A stretch of DNA of 30,527 nt, taken from the IMG/VR virus record IMGVR_UViG_3300006921_000080, positions 1 through 30,527 of that record; one strand, 5' to 3'. The translations under genes were made by a program, and so were the position numbers. How positions within the stretch are numbered: the first letter of the stretch is position 1; the number at the start of each line of letters is the position of its first letter. Under the pieces are notes generated by a model. That model made no database searches, was not told where the DNA came from, and saw nothing but the letters and a program-made list of their open reading frames with translations. The DNA is from a virus. Shown in pieces: positions 8,228-21,496 of this stretch.

Positions 8228-9811
8228 ATGGCTTTAAAAAGAGCAACATACGAACAATCACCAGTAGCTTTATTTTTAGACTTTCAGTTACCTCAAATGA
8301 TTGCAGATAATCAGGCAAGAGAAAGAGCTATGCAACATGAAATAGCTATGGAAGATAAAAGAGCTGAAAGACAAATGAATCTTGAAGCTTATAGAGCTAA
8401 TGAACAAAGACTTACTAACTTGCAAGACCAGTTTGTTGAAAAAGGTTTAAAAGTAAAACCTGAGTTTCAAACAAGTGGTTATGCAAATCTTTCAGAGCAA
8501 GTATTAAATAGTACAAAAGAAAAATCACAATCATTGTTAGATACTATACAGCAAGGTGATAGCCAAATAGCTTGGATGGAAAATCAATTAGCTGACTTAA
8601 AATCAGGTGAATTATTTGCTCAAAGAATGGAAGATGAATATGGAAGTTCTATAGCTGCAACTGAAAATGAAGCAGTTAAGAATTATATGCTTGAAGGTAA
8701 TCTTCAGCAAGATGAATCAGGTAAATGGACAGGAACTAAAGAACTTGCTAATATGTTTGCAAAATTAAGTGATGAAGAAAAAGTAAACTTTACAAGCAAT
8801 ACTTTTAGACAAGGCTTTATGCAAGGTAGAAAAACTGAATCTATGGCTAAGGAAATGTATCAAATAGATCAAACTCTTGCATTGACTGATATAGAAATAG
8901 CAAATGCTCAATATACAAAAGATACAAATAGATTAGATGATGCTGAAACTGCATTGCAATTATCAATGAAAAACTATGGTAATACATATGCTGGTAAGCT
9001 AACTCTTGGTGACACATCTTATGGAATGATAGAGTTGCTTGAAGTAGATGATCAAGTAGATGTATTTAATAAATTTAAAGATATGTATGATAATGGAGAA
9101 GTTACAGGGAGTGTTTACAATGAAGTGTATAATGGAATATCTGCTTTAAGAACAGCTGCTAAGTCTAATGATCCATATCCTGAAAGATATTTTATTCAAA
9201 TGGCTTCTCAAGCTCATGATGACATACAAGCTTATACTATAAAAAATGCTCAATATTTAGAAAATCCTTCTTTAAAAGAAGATCCTGATTTTATGACTGA
9301 ATATTTAGCTCTTCAAAGTAAATGGATTTCTTGGAACAAAGTAGGTTTAGGAGATATGGGCTCCTTATCTAAGGCTAAACAATTAAACCAAACTTTCAAT
9401 AAAGTACAGGATGCTAAATTAGATTTAATATTAAATGAAGTAGAAGTTGCAGATCAAACAAATACTATAAGTCCAGAATTAGAAACAGAACTGCTAGATG
9501 CTTTAAATAAAAAGAATCAAACTAAACAAATGGAAATAGAGCAAGAAGCTACACTTGGTGATTACTTTTCAACTATAGGTGCTACACCTTCTAGCTTTGT
9601 TGAAGGAACTGGAGATATATTGACAAATATTCTTGGCATGGATATGGGTCAAGAGACTTATGAAAATATAGATTATTTATTTAACACTCCTTTAAGTCAA
9701 ATTAATTCAGAAGACTTAAAAAGAAGATACACAGAAACAATGAATGCTTTGCCTGGAATAGGACTTATACATAAACCCTTAGATGAACTTATCAAATCCT
9801 TAAGCGAATAA
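8228..9811 (+). CDS. Probable internal virion/ejection protein, helical, 527 aa
   Basis: The ATG has AAAGGA upstream. Nearly the whole protein is predicted helix, rich in Gln, Glu, Lys and Ala. A coiled coil spans about 30-130 (ARERAMQHEIAMEDKRAERQ and following), a middle region resembles a helical repeat, and a short hydrophobic part lies near the C-terminus (about 450-480: GDYFSTIGATPSSFVEGTGD). No catalytic motif was seen. Length and composition fit the medium ejection protein of podoviruses, a class with T7 gp15-like roles, but I see no direct sequence homology. Confidence 0.6.
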   Translation: MALKRATYEQSPVALFLDFQLPQMIADNQARERAMQHEIAMEDKRAERQMNLEAYRANEQRLTNLQDQFVEKGLKVKPEFQTSGYANLSEQVLNSTKEKSQSLLDTIQQGDSQIAWMENQLADLKSGELFAQRMEDEYGSSIAATENEAVKNYMLEGNLQQDESGKWTGTKELANMFAKLSDEEKVNFTSNTFRQGFMQGRKTESMAKEMYQIDQTLALTDIEIANAQYTKDTNRLDDAETALQLSMKNYGNTYAGKLTLGDTSYGMIELLEVDDQVDVFNKFKDMYDNGEVTGSVYNEVYNGISALRTAAKSNDPYPERYFIQMASQAHDDIQAYTIKNAQYLENPSLKEDPDFMTEYLALQSKWISWNKVGLGDMGSLSKAKQLNQTFNKVQDAKLDLILNEVEVADQTNTISPELETELLDALNKKNQTKQMEIEQEATLGDYFSTIGATPSSFVEGTGDILTNILGMDMGQETYENIDYLFNTPLSQINSEDLKRRYTETMNALPGIGLIHKPLDELIKSLSE

Positions 9812-9820
9812 AGGAACTAA

Positions 9821-12800
9821 ATGGCTACACTTACTGAAAGAGAAAGAGTAAGGCAGGTATTATATCAAAAAGGAATAACTAACTGGTCTAATTCTGATAT
9901 AGATGCTTTTATTGAAAACAATAGAGATAAAATAAATCCTGCACAACCTAGTCCTCAGATAGCAACACCAACAGCTCCTCAACCTGTATCTCCAGGTATG
10001 TTAGCTCCAAGTAGAGCTTTAAGACAACAACCTATTCCTGGACAACAACCAACTCCTCCTTTGGGTACAGCTCCAAGTGAGTATGATGCATTCATGCAGG
10101 CAAATCAAAGAAAACAAAGAAATTCTGTAGCAGACTTTGTAGGTAATACATTGTGGAGTGGATTAGATTCTGCAACTTTTGGTGTCTTAGGTTGGATGGA
10201 TAAAAATGATTCTTTAGAGGATGCATTAACTGGTGGTGGTCCTACTACTACAGCTGGTAGTATAGGTGCTGGATTAGGTAGTCTTCTTGGATTCTTAGGT
10301 GGTCCTGTAAGTTTAGTTAAAGGTGCAGGTAGATTAGCAACACAAGGTTTAATTAAAGGTGGTGTAAAAGATGTTGCTCAAAATCTTGTATATACTTCAG
10401 GTAAAAGCTCTAAAGCATTTAAAACTTTACAAAAGAAATCTAAAGCTTGGAGAAATTTAAGTAATGAGCAGAAAGATCAATTCTTCAAACCTTGGACTGA
10501 ACAAATTACAAAACAAATACCTAGACTTCGTACTAATGTGCAAAGAGATGCATTTGCTAAAAACTTTAAACCTGCAACTGAAGCTGCATTAAAAGAAAAG
10601 CTAAATGAAATAGGTGTAAGAAATATAAGTAAAGAAAGTATTTCTAAAATAGCCGATGATATAGTAGATGCAGTTGGTATTAAAGCTGGAAAAGCATTAC
10701 CTGCACATGATTTAGAAAGGCTTATAGCTAATAAATTAACAACTACACTACCAAGATTAACTGGTGGAGCATTAGGTGCTAAAAGTGCTGAAATAGGTGC
10801 AGTAGTATTAGAAGAAGCAGTTGTTTTGGCTGCAGCAGAATCTGTTTCTAATGTTGTTCATAATTTAAGAGAGAATAAAGAATGGAATGAAAATATGGGT
10901 GGCACTTTAATGCATGCATTTGGTGTTGGTGCTGCATTTGGTTCATTCTCTCAGTTCGTTCCTGGTGGTAAAGATATACCTATATTAAGAACTGCAGCTA
11001 AAAGACTTCAAGATAGCTGGAAGAAAAAGAAGCCTTATGGTTCTTATAATCTTACAAAAGAATCAGATAGAGAATTATTAGGTGGTTGGGCTCATGCATT
11101 ATGGAGAGCATCAGAAAGAAACAAACAGGGTGCAAAAATCTTTACAGATTTAGGAATGCAATTAAATGGTAAGCCTATTAAAAGAGCTTCTGATATAACA
11201 AAGTTAGTACAAAATGGTTTAAATGGTAAAGGTACAGAGTCTGATAAAATAGCAGGTGCTAAAATAGTTAGAGATTTCTTACAAAAAGTTGAAAATAACT
11301 GGAATAAAAACTGGTGGGGAGAATTTGTAAAAGAAGCAGGTTCTGATTTATGGGGATCTATTCCAAGAATGGCAATGGGTTCAATGGTAATGAATTGGGA
11401 TATGAATGCTCCTGCTGGTCAAATGATTTTAAGAGATGATATTCCATTAGCTGATAAAGTATTTCATGTAGCAGTAGGTGCTTTCATGGGTAAAAGAGGT
11501 AGAGAAGTTCAATACTTAGATGCAGCTGGAAACAGACAAACTATGGAATGGACTAAGAGAGCTCCTTTAGGTGAAGATTATAAAAGAGCAAGTCAGTTTA
11601 TGGATATGCTTGGAATGGATAATGATCAACTTATATTTAGTGGTATACTTCAAGATTCTTATTTAAAAAGCAAGTATATGAAAGTTGATAATGAGCATTC
11701 TGATATTGTAGAAATAAAACGGATACTTGAAGAAGAAGGTATTATAGTTGATGAAAGTTATGAATTTAAAAGCACACCTGATGATAATAAAACTCAACAA
11801 ACTATAATAAATAAAATTGTAAGAACTAAAACTTCTCCAGATGGAAAGAAAACTTTCGATACAGATGATGAAGTTACAGCTTTTGTTCAAAGTGCTGAAG
11901 GTAAAAGGCAGATTAATGAAAGGCTTTTCAAGATAAAGTCTAACAGAGGAAAAGGTGTTGAAGGTCAGCATGATGTTTATGAACAGTTAGAAATGGTTTC
12001 TCACTTGCTATTAGGTAGTGGTGATAGAATGCTTTCTGTTTCTGAAATGAGTCCTAAACAATTATATAGAATAGAACAAAAATTAAAAAATGGTAACTAT
12101 GAAAGTATAGATAAGCTTCAAACAATATCAGATGTAGATGATATAATGCTTTCTGCAAATGATTCTAAAATGGAAGAGCTTATTACAAATATAGAAAGTA
12201 GTGTTAGTGATTTATATACATCACTTACTGGGCAATCACCTTCACCTGCTGGTATAGATTCTAAAATGTTAAGATTTGCAGATACAAGAATAGATCCAGA
12301 AAACTTAAGAAGATTAACAGCAGAACAACAAAACATGTTGGCAGAGTTTGAAAGAGCAAAAGACTTGCTTGTTCAAATAGGTAGAGCAAAAGTTATAGAC
12401 ACTAGAGGTGAAAAACTATTTGTTAAAGATGAGCAATTAGCAAAGCTTAAAGAAAATTTTGAAAGAATTAATAATGATTTAAATAAAGTAGTTAATAAAA
12501 CTGAAAATGTATCCAAAGAACATCAAGTATCTCTTGGTGATAGCTGGATGCTAGATTTAATTGAAGGTCAATCATTCTTTAAATCATACAGAAATATGTA
12601 TGAAATGCTAAATGATGCTACTAATAGTAAAGGTGCTTGGAAATCTAATCTTAAAGGTGAAAGTAATGCAAGAGAAGCACATGAGTTACTATCTGCAATG
12701 CTTAAAGATTCTGATGGCAAACTTGCTAATAGTTGGAAAATAGAAGGTGGCAATAAAGAACTGAATGAAAAAGATTTATATATGCTTAAATCTTTAAAGA

Positions 12801-15800
12801 GAATGATGGAAAAAATGGAAAACCATGTTCCTGCTCTTCATTCAGGTACTGAAGGACTAATAGAGACAAGACCTGTAGAAGTTACACAAAATCAATTAAA
12901 GAATTTAAAGAAATACTTTTCAGATAATGGAATGAATATTTTTGCATATGGAGACAATGCTCATACAGAAACATTTGTTAGAGCTGTAGAGAATTTTGGT
13001 ATAGATAAGTTTATTAAAAAATCTACAAAGATTAATTCTGATGGTACAGTTTCTACATTAAGTGGTCCTGACAGAGCTAAGATAGCATATTTATTAAAAG
13101 AAGGTATAGCAGATTATTCAGGAAATATACTTGACTTAGATGTTTACAATCCATTTAAAGCAGTTGTTAGTACAAACTTATTAAATCTTATTGAGTCTAA
13201 ATCTTTAGACAGAGGTTACAAAGCTTATGTATATGGTGATTTTGTAGGAAGTAATTCTAAGTTTAATGTTGAAGATTTAAATGAAGATTTAAGACTTAAT
13301 ATAGAAAAAGTTCTTAGAGATAGAGGTGTCTTGCAATCAAATATGAATGATGAGATAGCAAAGACATTTGGTAAGATGGTAATACAGTATCAAGAACATA
13401 TACAGCCTTATATTAAAACTGATAAAGGTGGTGTCTTTACTCCTGTAACTAGAGTTAATGCTGTTACAGACTATTCAAATATAGCAGAACTAATATCTCA
13501 ATTAGATATGCTTGAGATGACAAATAGTAAGTTTTCTCATGATCAATTATTAGAAGCAGTTAATGATAGCATGGGTTCTGATGGTTTATCAAAAGATAAA
13601 AAAGAACTATTAAGAAGTGTATATAATAAATTTTACTATGGTCAAGCTCCTTCTAATGGGCTTATAAAAGTTTTAAATGAATTAGGCTTATATAAGGATG
13701 GTAAGTTTGACTTTAATGATGCACCTGAGCATAGAGAAATGTCTCTTCAAGATAGAATACAAGTTGCTATTAGAGAAGCAGAGCTAACTATACCTGGTGG
13801 TTCAACAGAAGCAAATATAAATCAAAGAATAAAAGAAATTTCAGACAGATATGAAAAGGTATATGAAACTGATACTTTTAAATCAATGACTGAAAATCAA
13901 TTTACTGAAAAGTATGGAATCTTTCCTGAGCAAATGAAAGTAAGTATGAACTTTCAAGGTGATGATGTTATAGCAAATCTTATGCAAAATGCTAGATTAG
14001 TAGACGAACAAGGAAAGACTACTTATTATGCTGAAATGACTAAAGATCAGCAGTATCAACTATTGCAGGATTCTATTGCAATGATGATGACAAAACATAA
14101 TGGTATATCTGTTAAGAGATTATATGCTGATGAACAAGCTGGTGTTATGATTGATGCAGAACAAATTGTGTTTAAAAATCCAATGATGAATTTCTTAAAA
14201 GATTTTATTGGTGCTGATGGAGAGATGACAATTATAGATCCAAATGTATCTACTGTTAATGGTCCAAGAAATGCAAGATCAGATGCTTCTGCTATGAAGA
14301 TTCTTACAGCTAAAATGGCAGGTGAAGCATCAGGTTTAAGCCCTACAAAAGGATTGTTAAGAGGAGATGATGGACTTCCTTTAGGTAGATTAGATAGTGA
14401 CTATCTTCCTTTGTTTTTTGGTGATGTAAACTTTGCAGTTGGTGTTCCTTATAATGATGCAGTGTTAAATAAAATAGCACAACAGTTTGGCGACTATGTT
14501 CAAAAAGTAAAAAATCAATATACTGAAGCAGAATTTAAGACTATTAGAGAAGAGTTAAATAGTTTAGTTGGGTTGAAATTAGAATCCAAAATGAATAAAA
14601 TTAAAGATGCCGAAGGTAATGATGTAGAAGTTAAAACTTATTCATTTAAACGCTCTACAGCAGAGCCAGATAGACAAGCAGTAAATCTAATGCTTACACA
14701 TTTGTTTATGGATAAAAGTTTTGGAACTGACTATTGGGTTAATAAAGCAAATAAAACAGGTGAAAGTGGTGCTAAGTTTGCAAAAAGAATTAGAATGGTA
14801 CTTAACCCTTCAGCTAAAAAAATAGATCCATTTGTATTAGATAGTGCTATAAAAGGTTACGAAAGATTAGTACAAACAAATGAAATGCCTGAAGTACAGG
14901 AATCTTTAGATGCATTAAGAGCTTTAAAAACAGGTGTAAAATATGTACAAATTTCAGATGAAGCACCTGGTGCAGCTCAAAATCTAAATAAATTATTTTC
15001 CACATTTGATAAGATAGAAGAACAAATGAGAAAAGAAGGATACTCTGAAGATGAAATAGCTGACTGGAGAGCTAATGTAAAAAGAGATGATGTTTCTCTT
15101 GCCGATTCTTATACAGCTGTATCTCCAAGAATGTGGAAAGCATTGAAAGCTTTAGTGGGTTCTGAGAATATAGAAGGTATTGGTGGTATAAAACCTGTTA
15201 TAACAAGAGTTGGTAATAAAGAAGGCATCATGCTTGGTAAGACAGCATTTGTTCCAGATAAAAGAATGGAAAAGTTTTTTGAAAACAATCAAGATATAGA
15301 TATGGTTATAATGGGTTCTGCTGAAAAAAGTGGTAATCCTAACTTAAAAACTATAGATGCAAATATGTTTGTAGATAATGATGGTAATGCAGACTGGTCA
15401 GCTTTTGAAAACATGAGAGTAGGAGATGAATTTAATAATCTTGATGCTGAAGATATAAATCTTGCATCAGTAGTAAATTCTACTAAAGATGGAACTGTAT
15501 CATATCAGGTTGCAAATGAATTAAGTGCTAGTGCTAATAATTCATTCTATGATTGGTTAGTTAGACCTCAAATTGAAACATATCAAAAAGATGTTCCTGG
15601 TTATTTTAATGCAAGATCTCCTGAAGATGCTGTAGGGTATGCTAGATATAAATTACATGAAGATGGTAAAGGTTTAGATGGTGCTTATCAAAAATGGTTA
15701 GGACTTGCAAATGGTATACCTTTTACTCAAGCTTTCTTGCCTACATATAAATCTCAAATTAAAAAATCTTTTATAGATGATGGAATAATATCTTTAAAAA

Positions 15801-18799
15801 CAAAGTTTGGAAATCAGAGTGTACTAAGTCCTGGGTTAGATGTTAGTGATTTAAGAAATACTTTATTTAAAAAAGCTGCTGATGGTTCTAATGAAATATT
15901 TACTATAGGTCAAGTAGAAATAGCTCATACAAATAGAAATAAAAATGTACAGTTTGATAGACTTCATATTATAGAGCATAATGCAAATGGTTCTGCTAAA
16001 GATAATATACTTACTTGGGATGAATTTAAAAAGAAGGCTAAAAAAGAAACTGGTATTACTAAATTTAAAGAAAATGCAATGCCTACTCTTGGAAATCTTT
16101 TTGATACTATAGAGCAGTTAGTAAATACAAAGCTTGATGGTAAAAGATATGAGATTGCTATAGCTGGATGGAGACCTCCAAGTGCTAAACCAAGTGATAA
16201 AGTTATATCAGGATTAAAAGGTTTTGCTGATAAGGCTGATGGTAATCAATCAAGACTTAATGTTTCTGACTTAATGCTTAGAATTGAAGGAGACTTTGAT
16301 GTTGATAAATATAATTATTGGTGGGATACACCTACAGATATTATAAATGAATGGAATGGAAATTCAGGTAAAGTATTATCTACTCCTGTTGAAAGTAGTA
16401 TAAATAAACATACTGTAAAAGATTTTAGCTGGGGTAATGCAGAACAAGTTGAAGGTTACAATCTACATTCATCTACTGCAGGGAAACTCAGAGGAACTGT
16501 AGTTAAGACTAAAAGAATAATACAATTTTTAAATCATTATACTTCTCATCTTGAAAAAGGTAAAGGCTTTTCTATAATTACAGGCAATAATAGATTGATA
16601 AAGTTTGATCAAGATAAACTGTCAGAAGCAGAAGAAATAATAGCAAGAGATATACAAAATATAGTAGACTCTACAACAGGCTATAACAATACTGTTTATA
16701 ATGAAAAATGGTTTGAAAAATTCTTATTTGGTTCTCCAGACTTATTGTCTATGGATGGAAAAACTGCATGGGAAGGGTTGTTTAGTATATATAAAGGTGA
16801 AAAGTTTTTCAAAAAAGGTGAAGATGTAAGTACTCTGTCTGTGGAAAAATGGAGGCAAGCTAGAGTTTCTGATGCTAATATGAGATCAACCCAAATGAGA
16901 GTTGTTAGAGCTATGATAATGGATGTTGTTAGTGGGTATAGACATTTTCTACAATTAGGTTCAGATGTATATGATGCAGGGCAAGGTAAAAAACCTATCT
17001 ATGATGACATATTAAGCTATACAAGAGACTATGGCAAGCGTATGCAAAATTTAAATAGAGATGCTAAAAAAAGAATATTGAAAAAAAGACCTGAAGATAT
17101 ATCATACAAAGAATGGGAAGAAGAAGTAAATGCTGTATTTCAAAATATTCAAGGGAAAGATATAAGACCTTTCGGTGCATTCGGCTCAAATATAGATAAT
17201 GTAGATATGATGCTCCCATTTGATAGAGCTATGAAGGAAATAGCTGGAGTAGATGCAATGGCTATAGATTCTCCTACACAAATGTTTGGTAAGTCTCTTG
17301 CAAGATTTGAAGAAAGTTTCTCTGAATATGTAGACTCTAATAATAAATCAGAAATTATAAGTAAGTTAGTTGGTGACATAAAGAAAGATGTAAAGGTTAT
17401 AGGTCTTTTAAATTATTTAGATTATAAAATTAAAAAAAGTGCTGATGCTAAGTATAGTGCATTAAAAGAAAGAAGACAAGGGCTTGCAGATTATCATGAT
17501 AATGTTGCAAAAGAAAGTCAAGAATTAAAAAGTGAGCTAGAAAGTCAGCTTATAAATGAAAAGGGTACAGCTAAAAATATTAGAGAAGCTGCACAAAGAA
17601 GAATAGTATCTGAAGTTTATAAAAGATTAAACTGGAAAGGTAGAAGATTTTCTAACTTTAAAGAAGTAACTGAATGGTTAAAAAGTAAGGCAGGTAAAAA
17701 AGCTATTTCAGAAGAAGTCAATGCAAGACCTGTTAAGATTAAAGGTATAAGTAATCATGAATATCTTGATACAATGATATGGCATGAAATACTTGGTAAG
17801 TATAATGATATATATTTAGATCCACAAGGCTTGCATGGTAATGATCATATTGAATTTGAAAAAGATTTAAAAGAAATCATGAGCAAGAAGAATACTTTCT
17901 GGAAAAACTTTTTTGAAGATAAGAAAAGAGGAAAAAGAACTAGAACATATTTAGATGAGAATGCTATACACAATGAAATCACTGCACTATTTAATGCTAA
18001 GTTTGATAAATGGGAAGGTAAAGGTCAAGGCTTAGGCAGACTATTTTTATTTAGATTTATGGCTCCAAAAAAATCTATAGGTGAATATACTTATTTTAAT
18101 GGAAAACTTTTAGAAGGCTTTAAGAATACTTCTGCTTCAAATATAAAGTTTGGACTACGATGGTTAGCTGATCCACAAAATCATACAACAAGAGTAGGTG
18201 AGTTTGATGTAGACAATATGTTTAAAGAAATGGCTGCACAATATAATAATTTCTACAAAATGTATCATGGTCAAAGAATGGAAGTATTGAATGATGATGG
18301 TACAATAAATCTTGGAGTCTTTGAAAGTGAAGCTAAAGCTGCATTAGATAATATTACTATTGCAGAATCTATGCCACTTAAAGATGTATTTGGAACTGTA
18401 GCTGGTGATGGATTAGCTGGTGAGATTAATCCTATGCTAGGTTCTGTATTTGGATACAATACTAATGAAACAGTTGGATATATAATGGCACACAATCCTA
18501 TAGGACCAGAGTCTATAGCAAACTTAAAGAAAGCTGCACATCAAAACTTTTTACCTTCAGCTTATATACCTCAAGATTTTAATGGTGGTAGATTCGGTAT
18601 GATTAATGGCTGGTCTTCATACAATAAAGCAAGAATGAATAATGCAAGAACATTTCTTGGTAGTGCTGCTAACAAAGGAGCATTATATTATAAAAGCTTA
18701 CCTATGCAAAGAGTACCCTTTGAAGAATCAGGTACTAAATTAGAGTCTACTGAAAATTTAAAAGATCAATTAATAACAAGTATTACAGGAGAATGTTAA
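9821..18799 (+). CDS. Giant virion protein, 2992 aa, candidate two-barrel virion RNA polymerase
   Basis: The N-terminus is Pro/Gln-rich (40-85). A Gly-rich hydrophobic segment lies at about 144-170 and an Ala/Val-rich one at about 318-350, as in ejected proteins. Around 1790-1838 a barrel-like segment reads GGIKPVITRVGNKEG, LGKTAFV and IMGSAEKSG (Lys1807 and Lys1836 are candidate conserved lysines). At 2117-2120 WRPP precedes, by 40 residues, EGDFDVDKYNYWWDTP with DFDVD at 2158-2162. In two-barrel RNA polymerases the catalytic DxDxD loop follows an Arg-Pro element by a similar distance (E. coli beta-prime R425 and D460) and lies downstream of a Lys-bearing first barrel. crAss-like phages package such an enzyme. 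This makes a virion RNA polymerase for early genes plausible. The motif evidence is by eye only; the alternative is a giant structural ejection protein. Confidence 0.6.
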   Translation: MATLTERERVRQVLYQKGITNWSNSDIDAFIENNRDKINPAQPSPQIATPTAPQPVSPGMLAPSRALRQQPIPGQQPTPPLGTAPSEYDAFMQANQRKQRNSVADFVGNTLWSGLDSATFGVLGWMDKNDSLEDALTGGGPTTTAGSIGAGLGSLLGFLGGPVSLVKGAGRLATQGLIKGGVKDVAQNLVYTSGKSSKAFKTLQKKSKAWRNLSNEQKDQFFKPWTEQITKQIPRLRTNVQRDAFAKNFKPATEAALKEKLNEIGVRNISKESISKIADDIVDAVGIKAGKALPAHDLERLIANKLTTTLPRLTGGALGAKSAEIGAVVLEEAVVLAAAESVSNVVHNLRENKEWNENMGGTLMHAFGVGAAFGSFSQFVPGGKDIPILRTAAKRLQDSWKKKKPYGSYNLTKESDRELLGGWAHALWRASERNKQGAKIFTDLGMQLNGKPIKRASDITKLVQNGLNGKGTESDKIAGAKIVRDFLQKVENNWNKNWWGEFVKEAGSDLWGSIPRMAMGSMVMNWDMNAPAGQMILRDDIPLADKVFHVAVGAFMGKRGREVQYLDAAGNRQTMEWTKRAPLGEDYKRASQFMDMLGMDNDQLIFSGILQDSYLKSKYMKVDNEHSDIVEIKRILEEEGIIVDESYEFKSTPDDNKTQQTIINKIVRTKTSPDGKKTFDTDDEVTAFVQSAEGKRQINERLFKIKSNRGKGVEGQHDVYEQLEMVSHLLLGSGDRMLSVSEMSPKQLYRIEQKLKNGNYESIDKLQTISDVDDIMLSANDSKMEELITNIESSVSDLYTSLTGQSPSPAGIDSKMLRFADTRIDPENLRRLTAEQQNMLAEFERAKDLLVQIGRAKVIDTRGEKLFVKDEQLAKLKENFERINNDLNKVVNKTENVSKEHQVSLGDSWMLDLIEGQSFFKSYRNMYEMLNDATNSKGAWKSNLKGESNAREAHELLSAMLKDSDGKLANSWKIEGGNKELNEKDLYMLKSLKRMMEKMENHVPALHSGTEGLIETRPVEVTQNQLKNLKKYFSDNGMNIFAYGDNAHTETFVRAVENFGIDKFIKKSTKINSDGTVSTLSGPDRAKIAYLLKEGIADYSGNILDLDVYNPFKAVVSTNLLNLIESKSLDRGYKAYVYGDFVGSNSKFNVEDLNEDLRLNIEKVLRDRGVLQSNMNDEIAKTFGKMVIQYQEHIQPYIKTDKGGVFTPVTRVNAVTDYSNIAELISQLDMLEMTNSKFSHDQLLEAVNDSMGSDGLSKDKKELLRSVYNKFYYGQAPSNGLIKVLNELGLYKDGKFDFNDAPEHREMSLQDRIQVAIREAELTIPGGSTEANINQRIKEISDRYEKVYETDTFKSMTENQFTEKYGIFPEQMKVSMNFQGDDVIANLMQNARLVDEQGKTTYYAEMTKDQQYQLLQDSIAMMMTKHNGISVKRLYADEQAGVMIDAEQIVFKNPMMNFLKDFIGADGEMTIIDPNVSTVNGPRNARSDASAMKILTAKMAGEASGLSPTKGLLRGDDGLPLGRLDSDYLPLFFGDVNFAVGVPYNDAVLNKIAQQFGDYVQKVKNQYTEAEFKTIREELNSLVGLKLESKMNKIKDAEGNDVEVKTYSFKRSTAEPDRQAVNLMLTHLFMDKSFGTDYWVNKANKTGESGAKFAKRIRMVLNPSAKKIDPFVLDSAIKGYERLVQTNEMPEVQESLDALRALKTGVKYVQISDEAPGAAQNLNKLFSTFDKIEEQMRKEGYSEDEIADWRANVKRDDVSLADSYTAVSPRMWKALKALVGSENIEGIGGIKPVITRVGNKEGIMLGKTAFVPDKRMEKFFENNQDIDMVIMGSAEKSGNPNLKTIDANMFVDNDGNADWSAFENMRVGDEFNNLDAEDINLASVVNSTKDGTVSYQVANELSASANNSFYDWLVRPQIETYQKDVPGYFNARSPEDAVGYARYKLHEDGKGLDGAYQKWLGLANGIPFTQAFLPTYKSQIKKSFIDDGIISLKTKFGNQSVLSPGLDVSDLRNTLFKKAADGSNEIFTIGQVEIAHTNRNKNVQFDRLHIIEHNANGSAKDNILTWDEFKKKAKKETGITKFKENAMPTLGNLFDTIEQLVNTKLDGKRYEIAIAGWRPPSAKPSDKVISGLKGFADKADGNQSRLNVSDLMLRIEGDFDVDKYNYWWDTPTDIINEWNGNSGKVLSTPVESSINKHTVKDFSWGNAEQVEGYNLHSSTAGKLRGTVVKTKRIIQFLNHYTSHLEKGKGFSIITGNNRLIKFDQDKLSEAEEIIARDIQNIVDSTTGYNNTVYNEKWFEKFLFGSPDLLSMDGKTAWEGLFSIYKGEKFFKKGEDVSTLSVEKWRQARVSDANMRSTQMRVVRAMIMDVVSGYRHFLQLGSDVYDAGQGKKPIYDDILSYTRDYGKRMQNLNRDAKKRILKKRPEDISYKEWEEEVNAVFQNIQGKDIRPFGAFGSNIDNVDMMLPFDRAMKEIAGVDAMAIDSPTQMFGKSLARFEESFSEYVDSNNKSEIISKLVGDIKKDVKVIGLLNYLDYKIKKSADAKYSALKERRQGLADYHDNVAKESQELKSELESQLINEKGTAKNIREAAQRRIVSEVYKRLNWKGRRFSNFKEVTEWLKSKAGKKAISEEVNARPVKIKGISNHEYLDTMIWHEILGKYNDIYLDPQGLHGNDHIEFEKDLKEIMSKKNTFWKNFFEDKKRGKRTRTYLDENAIHNEITALFNAKFDKWEGKGQGLGRLFLFRFMAPKKSIGEYTYFNGKLLEGFKNTSASNIKFGLRWLADPQNHTTRVGEFDVDNMFKEMAAQYNNFYKMYHGQRMEVLNDDGTINLGVFESEAKAALDNITIAESMPLKDVFGTVAGDGLAGEINPMLGSVFGYNTNETVGYIMAHNPIGPESIANLKKAAHQNFLPSAYIPQDFNGGRFGMINGWSSYNKARMNNARTFLGSAANKGALYYKSLPMQRVPFEESGTKLESTENLKDQLITSITGEC

Positions 18800-21496
18800 A
18801 TGCCCAGTATTAGTGCATGTACTCCAGATCAACAAAAAAGAATCAGAGAATTGTCTAAAGCTATAGACACTTTTGAAGAAGCAAAAAGTACTCAGTTATT
18901 AGCTGAAGCTCAAGGTAAAGCACCAGCAATTTTGTTTAAAGATTTTTATAGAAATGTTACAGGGTTAGATTTTGATCTTGATACTAAGCCAGATTTAAAA
19001 ACTATAAATAAATTAAACAGAAGAATAAAACAATTAGATAAGAAATGGGTTAAGCCTAATAAGTTTAAAGAATTTTTCTATCTACCTGAAGTTATTATGA
19101 GTAAGAATCCTATAACTAAAAGAGTTTATGATGGCTTTGTAAAAGCAGGTAATTTCTACAGAGGTAATACTGAAAGATTTAGTAATAACTTAGGACATAT
19201 AGTTAGAAATATAGATATAGCTATAAAAGAAAAAGATGTATCTGCTAAATGGGGAAGTACTGCTCGCAATGCTGCATCCAGATTAAGACTTTTAGAAAAA
19301 AAATATCAGTTATTATTAAAAGAAAAAAAGTTTTCAGAAGCTGATCAATTTTATGATGATTTCTTAGCAGACTTAGGTTCAAGTAAAGATGTTCAATTAA
19401 AAACTTTAGATGATGCATATACATTATTTTCAGATCCTTCTAAGATAACACAAAAAGATAAGTATGGAACTGCATTAGTTGAGGCTGCAAGTGTATGGCA
19501 TGGTTCTAAAGGTAAAGAAGGAATGAAGGATAAGTTGTGGAATATACTTAAGTCTGGATTAGATGATTATGCAGCTGTTATAAGACTAAGTAAAAAAGAT
19601 GATTGGGGTTTTGAAGGTACAGAAAGAGCAATAGCAAAATTATTAGATGATTTTAAACCTCAAGATAATTATTTCCCAACACAAGTATTAGACATATTCC
19701 CTGTCATAAGTAAACTTAATGAAGGAATATTTAATAATACAAGTATAGATGGGAAAAGAGCATTTGATCCAGCTGAAGCTAAACAACATATTGATAATAT
19801 GATTAAAGAGATTAGCTCTAATTTAAAAAAGCCTGGAAATGTATATGCACAATCTGCTGTAAGTGTAAACAGACATTCTAAGAATGTGATAGATATTATA
19901 GATACATACACAAAGAATGTAGTCAAGTTTAATTACATGGCAAGAATGACTAGAAGAACTGCTGAAGGTTTAAAATCTTTAGGTGGAATGTATGGTAATG
20001 ATTTTGATAATCATTTAGACTTTATGAAAAATTATTTAAAAGATACACATGCTACAGCTACAGGGATTAACAGTGGAAACAGTGCTTTAAAATCTTTTTC
20101 AAGAGCAGCAACATCCTGGGGCTATCTTTCTAAATTAGGTCTTAATGTTAGGGGTGCTGCTAGAAATGCTACTCAATCTTTACAGAACTATATATGGTTT
20201 GGTAGAAAAGGTATATCTGATTCTTTGACTTACATTAAAGCAGAAAATTTAGAAGATCAACTTACTGAAGCTATGAAACAAGAAGGTGTATTCTTTGTTA
20301 ATATTGGTGAGTTAGCTGGTGATAATAAACTTTTTTCTGAAGTTATATTAAAAGATGGTAAGCCTACATTTGAAAATGATTCTTTTATGGATAGATTTAA
20401 TGAGAAGATGGAATCAGTAGCACAAAAAGTTTCTGATGTACCTGTTATAGGCATGCAGAGTGTTGAGAACTGGAACAGACAATTAACATTTAAGATTGCA
20501 TTTGCTCAAGAGTATAAAAGATTAATGTCTAATGATGCATTAGTAAAAGATGCATTAAGAAAGTCTGGTAAAATAACTGATGATACTAAAGCTTCTGAAG
20601 TTGCATCTCAAGTTAGAAAAAGAGTAGCTAAAAAAGCTCAAAGATTTGCATCAAATATGACTAATGAATTGCATTATGATTATAGCAGATATGCAAAGTC
20701 AAAAGCAGTTAGAGGTCCTATTGGATCTGTTTTAGGTCAGTTTACTACTTATAGTATGAACTTTATGAACTATCAAGTAAAGATAGCTAAAGCTGCAGGT
20801 AATTCTGCAATAGAAGGTAGTTGGAATAGTCCTGAAATGCAAAGAGCTATAAGATTAGGCATGACTTATATGATTATAGGTGCTATAATTGAGCCTTTAA
20901 CTAATACTACAATAACTAATCTTGTTCAGAATGATACTTATGATAGAATTGAAAACTTACATACTTGGTTATCTGGTGATGAAGATGAAAGAAAGAAAGC
21001 ATTCTTTGGTAAAGGTCCTTTATTAGGTACATTTGGTGGACCATTTATAGGAGACTTAATTAACATTGGAAATCTTGCTGGGTTTGTTAATATGGATGAA
21101 GGTTCTTTCTTATCTTATTTAGGTGCACATGAAAACTTACCAGACAATGTTAAAGATGAAAAGATGAAAGAGTTTATAAGAATATTAAATCCTCAAGTGC
21201 ATAGAACTTTTTATAATACTATACCTAGAATGATTAATGGAATGACTCTTGGCACAGCTGCATCTCAAGAATTAGCTTTATACAAAGACCCAGAGGCATC
21301 AAAAATAAAGAGAAAGTTTGCTAACTCTGCTGCTTTAAGAATGATGCCTGATCCTATGAGGGATTACCTTACACCCAAGGATGTGAAAGATGAAAGAGAA
21401 TCCAAAAGATCTGATTTCTGGGCTTATGGTAGTCAGCAAGACGACAATGGTAATCTTAATGATTTATTTAGAATGCTTCAAGAGAGACAAGACTAA
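18800..21496 (+). CDS. Large ejection/internal virion protein, 898 aa
   Basis: A GGAGA ribosome site precedes ATG 18800, which directly follows the TAA of the giant gene. The first 600 residues are helical and rich in Lys, Asp and Leu. Residues from about 620 contain a pattern common to podoviral ejection proteins: MTNELHYDYSRYAKSKAVRG, then FTTYSMNFMNYQVK. A membrane-like helix follows (about 687-709, YMIIGAIIEPLTNTTITNL), and then a Gly-rich hydrophobic stretch (about 737-763, KGPLLGTFGGPFIGDLINIG). It probably forms part of the transenvelope channel with its upstream neighbours. It is the last rightward gene, and its stop codon overlaps that of the convergent 57-aa gene by four bases. A DFDLD at about residue 57 lacks polymerase context. 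Confidence 0.65.
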   Translation: MPSISACTPDQQKRIRELSKAIDTFEEAKSTQLLAEAQGKAPAILFKDFYRNVTGLDFDLDTKPDLKTINKLNRRIKQLDKKWVKPNKFKEFFYLPEVIMSKNPITKRVYDGFVKAGNFYRGNTERFSNNLGHIVRNIDIAIKEKDVSAKWGSTARNAASRLRLLEKKYQLLLKEKKFSEADQFYDDFLADLGSSKDVQLKTLDDAYTLFSDPSKITQKDKYGTALVEAASVWHGSKGKEGMKDKLWNILKSGLDDYAAVIRLSKKDDWGFEGTERAIAKLLDDFKPQDNYFPTQVLDIFPVISKLNEGIFNNTSIDGKRAFDPAEAKQHIDNMIKEISSNLKKPGNVYAQSAVSVNRHSKNVIDIIDTYTKNVVKFNYMARMTRRTAEGLKSLGGMYGNDFDNHLDFMKNYLKDTHATATGINSGNSALKSFSRAATSWGYLSKLGLNVRGAARNATQSLQNYIWFGRKGISDSLTYIKAENLEDQLTEAMKQEGVFFVNIGELAGDNKLFSEVILKDGKPTFENDSFMDRFNEKMESVAQKVSDVPVIGMQSVENWNRQLTFKIAFAQEYKRLMSNDALVKDALRKSGKITDDTKASEVASQVRKRVAKKAQRFASNMTNELHYDYSRYAKSKAVRGPIGSVLGQFTTYSMNFMNYQVKIAKAAGNSAIEGSWNSPEMQRAIRLGMTYMIIGAIIEPLTNTTITNLVQNDTYDRIENLHTWLSGDEDERKKAFFGKGPLLGTFGGPFIGDLINIGNLAGFVNMDEGSFLSYLGAHENLPDNVKDEKMKEFIRILNPQVHRTFYNTIPRMINGMTLGTAASQELALYKDPEASKIKRKFANSAALRMMPDPMRDYLTPKDVKDERESKRSDFWAYGSQQDDNGNLNDLFRMLQERQD

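Follow-up and report, generated by a model that had tools for sequence, protein, structure and literature searches.

The question raised by this locus is whether a protein of nearly three thousand residues, encoded in a virion gene cassette, carries an RNA polymerase (RNAP) in its middle part. The DNA analysed (the window) comprises 30,527 nt of the viral IMG/VR record IMGVR_UViG_3300006921_000080, positions 1 to 30,527. Our reading, to which we give a probability of roughly 0.86, is that this giant protein has a complete single-chain two-barrel RNAP as its middle part and is packaged, ejected and used to transcribe early genes. Virion-packaged two-barrel RNAPs are already known as a kind, and the single-chain type has been found in crAss-like and Thermus phages and, by sequence, in Flavobacterium phages such as Fpv1. 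What is apparently undescribed is the family and its setting, in which the core lies mid-way along a cassette protein of ~3000 aa, in phages with other terminase, portal and capsid genes and with a constant partner gene. No description of the family was found in open-licence PMC papers among the matches listed; the survey of viral two-barrel RNAPs in the supplement of PMC10770324 could include it. The features discussed are collected in Table 1.

Table 1. Features of the window. Coordinates are window positions; residues are those of the giant protein.
Feature	Coordinates	Strand	Basis or remark
939-aa tail protein	2109-4928	+	homologues upstream of giant gene in 7/14 loci
525-aa fibre-like protein	4928-6505	+	phrog_24210, E 4.8e-5
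Candidate internal virion proteins of 241 and 213 aa	6845..8211	+	inferred from position and composition
527-aa candidate ejection protein	8228..9811	+	position; one blastp match (L026 neighbour, E 1.5e-9)
Giant protein containing the predicted polymerase	9821..18799	+	2992 aa, open frame
Predicted two-barrel RNAP core, aa 1610-2330	14648..16810	+	AlphaFold2, Foldseek, VIA
GGIKPVIT, aa 1788-1795, first-barrel side	15182..15205	+	invariant K1791 (codon 15191-15193)
LGKTAFV, aa 1805-1811, first-barrel side	15233..15253	+	invariant K1807 (codon 15239-15241)
MGSAEKSG, aa 1831-1838, first-barrel side	15311..15334	+	invariant K1836 (codon 15326-15328)
WRPP, aa 2117-2120	16169..16180	+	invariant R2118 and P2120 (R-x-P)
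EGDFDVDK, aa 2156-2163	16286..16309	+	catalytic-type DxDxD (D2158, D2160, D2162)
Partner protein, 898 aa, directly downstream of giant gene	18800..21496	+	homologue next in 14/14 loci

Active-site motifs and their conservation

A preliminary description of the DNA had proposed a two-barrel active site from five motifs, and all five were located at the residues it named, each occurring once in the giant protein. In two-barrel RNAPs an R-x-P element stands about 35-40 residues before the catalytic Asp motif, and lysines of the first barrel also have a role. The spacing from R2118 to D2158 is 40 residues, in agreement with the interval of about 35-40 that had been claimed after an Arg-Pro element, and the conserved proline of WRPP is P2120 rather than P2119. 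Judged from the motifs, the first barrel would lie near aa 1760-1850, with the three lysines, and the second near aa 2090-2190, with R-x-P and DxDxD.

DxDxD alone is weak evidence, because at least one copy occurred in 58.6% of 2000 shuffles of the giant protein. The pattern D[FYHWL]DxDK was present in 1.6% of 2000 shuffles, and DxDxD together with R-x-P within the stretch 33-44 residues upstream in 2.0%. The shuffled frequency of the bare motif would suit the idea that the triad is an accident in an unrelated giant structural protein, as would the plain sequence searches, which gave no family. The giant protein had no significant match in Pfam, PHROG or PDB, and tblastn against 50,697 phage records gave nothing at 1e-3; tblastn of the phage collection with the proteins of P0001, L040 and L028 retrieved no family member, and GTDB genomes, scanned twice, gave none either. 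Scans with peptide patterns, both of the entire giant protein and of its motif region, were likewise negative. When the giant-protein family was scanned, PHROG yielded no match and Pfam two, each to one member (0.0025 and 0.0047). The triad nevertheless stands above chance because it is conserved in relatives, and in view of this conservation and of the fold and profile results below, an accidental motif is hardly credible.

The first relatives were obtained by scanning IMG/VR with a DNA pattern for EGDFDxDK. Of the 23 loci found in this way, 5 encode clear homologues, with 25-36% identity in the best segments, and 18 are unrelated. With the core alignment as query, 16 loci were found in IMG/VR, and another core scan gave the identical 16 contigs. 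In the first family alignment (these 16 loci and the window), D2158, D2160 and D2162 were present in 17/17 sequences, as DFDVD (6), DHD[YL]D (9), DFDLD (1) or DYDID (1); K1791, K1807, K1836, R2118 and P2120 were found in 16/17, which are all the sequences covering those positions. One locus (L039) begins inside the core, and L037, 99% like L036, was omitted from alignments A3 and A4. K2163, W2167 and W2168 also looked conserved in these early alignments, but this was rejected as an artefact of the search, the query patterns having held EGDFDV or DK and WW.

This bias was removed by searching IMG/VR with the separate downstream partner protein of 898 aa. Of the 58 loci so obtained, 16 lie on the contigs from the core-alignment search, and the core profile located the giant protein in 47 (49 after one further round). 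In the resulting set, window included, the Asp triad was present in 47/47 sequences, R2118 and P2120 in 45/45 each, and K1791, K1807 and K1836 in 44/44 each. E2156 and D2150 were each kept in 47/47. Neighbouring positions varied, with Lys at 2163 in 25/47, Trp at 2167 in 25/47 and Trp at 2168 in 41/47. The sequences are not independent, and they represent 43 distinct motif contexts.

The core profile applied to the partner loci had been built from the first relatives, and the 11 loci without a profile match were therefore checked by eye. Three hold a giant frame with a triad and R-x-P upstream of it (DMDGD in L111, DHDGD in L121, DFDGD in L123), and eight end before the site. One further locus (L078) matches the profile and ends before the site; the rest of its contig is L014, in which the triad is present. 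The contigs or stored stretches that stop short of the site are those of L071, L078, L079, L087, L088, L106, L110, L112 and L113. All 49 loci that span the site have the triad (46 by core profile and 3 by eye).

Homologues lacking the three aspartates had been named beforehand as an observation that would speak against a polymerase; every sequence in the first alignment and in the partner-found set retains all three. The suggestion of functional first-barrel lysines is likewise upheld, in that each of the three motifs picked holds one of the invariant lysines. These data also bear on the view that the protein is an ejection protein descended from a polymerase, no longer catalytic and used just to translocate or bind DNA. 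Known ejection proteins of short-tailed phages are mostly structural, but in all 44-47 sequences the triad, R-x-P and three lysines are unchanged, and positions close by vary. Such invariance is what retained catalysis predicts, and we consider a loss of catalysis very unlikely.

Among the relatives, one locus (L071, IMG/VR contig 3300037585_002912) encodes a partner protein 100% identical to that of the window, and on this sequence its phage is the same as the window's or a very close one, in another metagenome. Another contig (3300030107_004732, 85 kb, loci L055-L059) holds its structural and replication modules twice, in related but differing versions that share 65-93% DNA identity and lie about 48-54 kb from each other, so that a chimera or tandem of two related phages is probable. 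In L012/L028, which are on the same contig, the N-terminal part of the giant protein is extended and includes HNNPGG. This extension is reminiscent of phage peptidoglycan-hydrolase domains; the Pfam scan of the giant-protein family gave no peptidoglycan-hydrolase match for it.

Predicted fold and remote homology

AlphaFold2 was run with relatives on aa 1430-2560 (first model, pLDDT 66.2, pTM 0.60) and on aa 1610-2330 (second model, pLDDT 70.5, pTM 0.70). Over aa 2090-2179 of the second model, which include R-x-P and the triad, the ten-residue means of pLDDT were 71-92. With both models, the first Foldseek match in the PDB was the virion-packaged RNAP of phage phi14:2 (6vr4; E 7.8e-10 and 8.1e-12), followed by QDE-1. 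The Foldseek superposition on the phi14:2 enzyme was loose (TM by query 0.38 and 0.36, rmsd 15.7 and 9.5 Å). The PDB matches listed (best 50 per list) were all RNA polymerases or complexes with one.

In VIA-align 2, the second model scored highest with the RNA-interference polymerases QDE-1 (2j7n_A, Z 17.1, 395 residues, 5.0 Å) and maize RDR2 (Z 16.1, 362 aligned, 5.1 Å), the best structural scores over both barrels. Phage enzymes followed, namely P74 gp62 (8f5m, Z 12.1), P32 gp64 (8f72, Z 11.7), the phi14:2 RNAP (Z 11.4, 454 residues, 5.2 Å) and P23-45 gp96 (8h2m, Z 10.6). The largest subunits of multisubunit RNAPs reached Z of at most 9.8 and were aligned only from model residue 342-385, i.e. 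over the second-barrel half. For the first model the values were about 12 for RDR2 and QDE-1 and 10.8 for phi14:2. QDE-1 and RDR2 are stand-alone eukaryotic enzymes. By sequence, no PDB chain is matched significantly by the giant protein.

A predicted structure without two double-psi beta barrels had also been named beforehand as an observation against a polymerase; the models match solved two-barrel RNA polymerases in both Foldseek and VIA, at the level of structural matches rather than of strand topology. The core is predicted to fold like the solved members across both barrels, with low TM-scores and moderate model confidence. A T7-like single-subunit fold was not found, the core being modelled as two-barrel and the Pfam scan of the giant protein being without RNA_pol. 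In BFVD, two unnamed viral proteins were matched, A0A516L9L2 (28% identity, E 5.8e-45) and A0A516M3R5 (17%, E 1.0e-24), and both are probably members of the giant-protein polymerase family. Lower BFVD matches were crAss-like phage proteins and more unnamed ones.

For the profile comparison, the template set covered the barrel region of phi14:2, crAss001, DAC15, cr55_1, crAss002, LMMB and Fpv1 (n = 7). Fpv1 is a non-crAss Flavobacterium phage and the other six are Crassvirales. The templates came from a search in which 139 records had a match, 8 of which were taken; cr6_1 (32 in-frame stops under table 11) was dropped, leaving 7. A 49-row profile of the core aligned with these phage RNAPs by hhalign with a probability of 95.7%, a score of 77.9 over 318 columns and E 8.4e-9 (one comparison), a sequence relation to the crAss-like RNAPs that is present and remote only. 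The best of 100 column-shuffled decoys scored 24.3 and the reversed profile 21.3. The alignment spans both barrels, with K1836, R-x-P and the Asp triad (DFDIDK of phi14:2) in register; K1791 and K1807 were not seen in register with the crAss-like RNAPs.

The smaller alignment A3 scored 51.8 against the phage RNAPs (best of 60 decoys, 21.6). With the first-barrel stretch alone, the score was 24.2 (best of 60 decoys 15.0, reversed 15.9), and K1836 again fell in register with the KVG lysine of the crAss-like RNAPs. For the long alignment A4, the hhalign probability was 0.1% at first and 68% once the template was trimmed and one option dropped. Single-sequence targets scored 17.5-31.1 (P23-45 gp64, 18.5), mostly near the controls of 19.1 and 19.8, and only the profile-profile comparison is therefore informative. 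That the core is related to the crAss-like virion RNAP and, as modelled, folds like QDE-1 is well supported by computation.

Gene neighbourhood and kind of phage

On the + strand of the window, the tail protein and fibre-like protein are followed by four proteins of small to medium size, and then by the giant protein and its partner. From 21668 the genes lie on the - strand; among them are a DnaB-type helicase with similarity to primases, a Sak4-like protein and one weak match to PDDEXK nucleases. The sign of the GC skew switches at this turnover from + to - genes, about 21668. The neighbour comparison summarised in Table 1 covered 14 loci, with L014 and L037 left out.

The giant gene and the partner nearly abut in most loci inspected, but L026 and L027 have about 200 bp between them. 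The conserved gene pair, like the fold, the homology and the conserved active site, is supported by computation. In tblastn of the phage collection, the partner protein had no match. Eight of 12 partners match phrog_11358, a profile of 3431 positions whose function is not given, the window protein doing so at 3070-3164; from this sequence match, a giant protein may elsewhere include the partner as its C-terminal part. Frames directly upstream of the partner (L071-L127, L039; window 18780-18830) end in Cys in 37/56 cases, a few of the 56 not being the giant gene, and several others have Cys among the last few residues. The partner itself has a Cys near its start, in column C7, that is invariant in 12/12. 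For these cysteines on either side of the junction, a disulphide or a processing signal is conceivable.

Upstream in the window, a 273-aa protein resembling class II aminoacyl-tRNA synthetases was found at 540-1361 (PF00152, E 3.3e-16; phrog_29758, E 4.4e-94), and near it a tRNA-Asn gene (anticodon gtt) at 1629-1715. The two are a possible tRNA-charging or asparagine-synthesis pair of the phage.

Terminase, portal and capsid genes were not seen in the window, and relatives were used because of this. Relative G003 has phrog_38 (terminase), phrog_156 (portal) and phrog_1328 (capsid), the last of which is also found in G001, whereas the corresponding families in phi14:2 are phrog_6681, phrog_6547 and phrog_11589. 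Because these PHROGs differ, and with no tblastn match at 1e-3 to phi14:2 from ORFs of the window and four relative records, the window's phage group is, by these sequence comparisons, not Crassvirales. Terminases like that of G003 occur in 479 phage records, and the best 25 of the 479 include N4-like phages and Vibrio ICP2. The start of the 939-aa protein, DFSGGIN, resembles tail-nozzle proteins, and from this likeness and the terminase, portal and capsid families we infer short-tailed phages. A search of 17 records with PF00940 for a T7-like RNAP gave no match, and the controls were silent too.

Proposed role in the virion and comparison with known systems

Packaging, ejection and early transcription are proposed by analogy with the crAss-like virion RNAPs and P23-45, and catalysis, template, promoters and coupling to DNA entry are likewise proposed. 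In crAss-like phages the virion RNAP goes into the cell together with the DNA and carries out early transcription (PMC7886860). P23-45 fuses a two-barrel enzyme to its tape measure, and transcription during DNA entry has been proposed (PMC10770324). In the window's phage, the giant protein would be packaged as one of the ejection proteins of a short-tailed particle and would reach the host cytoplasm side by side with the genome end that enters first. The polymerase domain would then transcribe early genes, probably those of the minus-strand arm, without the host RNA polymerase, and might pull DNA in while transcribing.

A real and active polymerase need not be a virion component; it could be made during infection, for late transcription or other RNA synthesis in the cell, in which case the gene order alone would point to a virion protein. 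P23-45 gp64 is such a non-virion two-barrel phage enzyme (PMC10770324). The giant gene, however, sits among tail-type genes on the same strand and has the same partner in 14/14 loci. Its frame is kept at about 2800-3100 aa in full-length homologues on IMG/VR contigs, as in known virion RNAPs, and we regard production during infection as unlikely.

Among the closest known systems is the virion RNAP of phi14:2 (gp077 in KC821624), which has a single-chain two-barrel core and is encoded among virion proteins. In phi14:2, R-x-P is followed 39 residues on by GSDFDIDK, and in the window 40 residues on by EGDFDVDK; the third first-barrel lysine is shared in register. The phi14:2 enzyme is a protein of 2180 aa, whereas the window core occupies aa 1610-2330 of 2992. 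In the Thermus phages, P23-45 gp96 is also a two-barrel polymerase fused to a giant virion protein, but it forms the N-terminal portion of a long-tail tape measure, whereas the window core lies mid-protein in a cassette that appears to be of short-tail type. P74 gp62 and P32 gp64 (named as in the PDB titles) are stand-alone two-barrel enzymes.

The N4 virion enzyme is a T7-like single-subunit polymerase, whereas the window core is predicted to have the two-barrel fold. Otherwise the N4-like (Schitoviridae) virion RNAP is similar, since there too a short-tailed phage has its polymerase inside a virion protein of very large size; size and gene position of the giant protein fit such an ejected giant virion protein. 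The polymerases of phiKZ-type jumbo phages have two barrels and are multisubunit, whereas that of the window is one chain. They are injected (PMC10612078). The N4-like virion RNAP of phage DEV has 3,398 aa (PMC10925440).

The evidence is about evenly balanced on a broader picture, in which a widespread set of uncultured phages, probably short-tailed and represented by at least 58 IMG/VR contigs, many of them 50-57 kb long, has its own virion-polymerase lineage, an N4-style giant ejection protein with a single-chain two-barrel engine. The injected proteins of short-tailed phages would then have acquired two unrelated polymerase folds on separate occasions, making early transcription, and possibly genome entry, independent of the host enzyme, and the terminal cysteines may link the giant protein and its partner in the virion. 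The two-barrel virion RNAP would be extended to phages with a different packaging and capsid module. The repeated recruitment of injected polymerases into ejection proteins, and transcription as an aid to genome entry, would become testable. The residue signature together with the partner gene offers annotators a means of recognising such enzymes when standard libraries give no match.

The window does not include the early promoter region. A conserved AT-rich element, approximately AAAATTGTnGnATTTTAGT, is shared by the divergent intergenic regions of G003 (two copies) and G005; it occurs at L056:5045, L058:16672 and L067:4013, one per region and before a presumed early operon. It is a candidate promoter, origin or regulator. 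As the enzyme's promoter it was considered and not adopted, because it had been picked post hoc from three sequences and because shuffled sequence yields about 7 hits per 252 kb when up to 3 mismatches are allowed.
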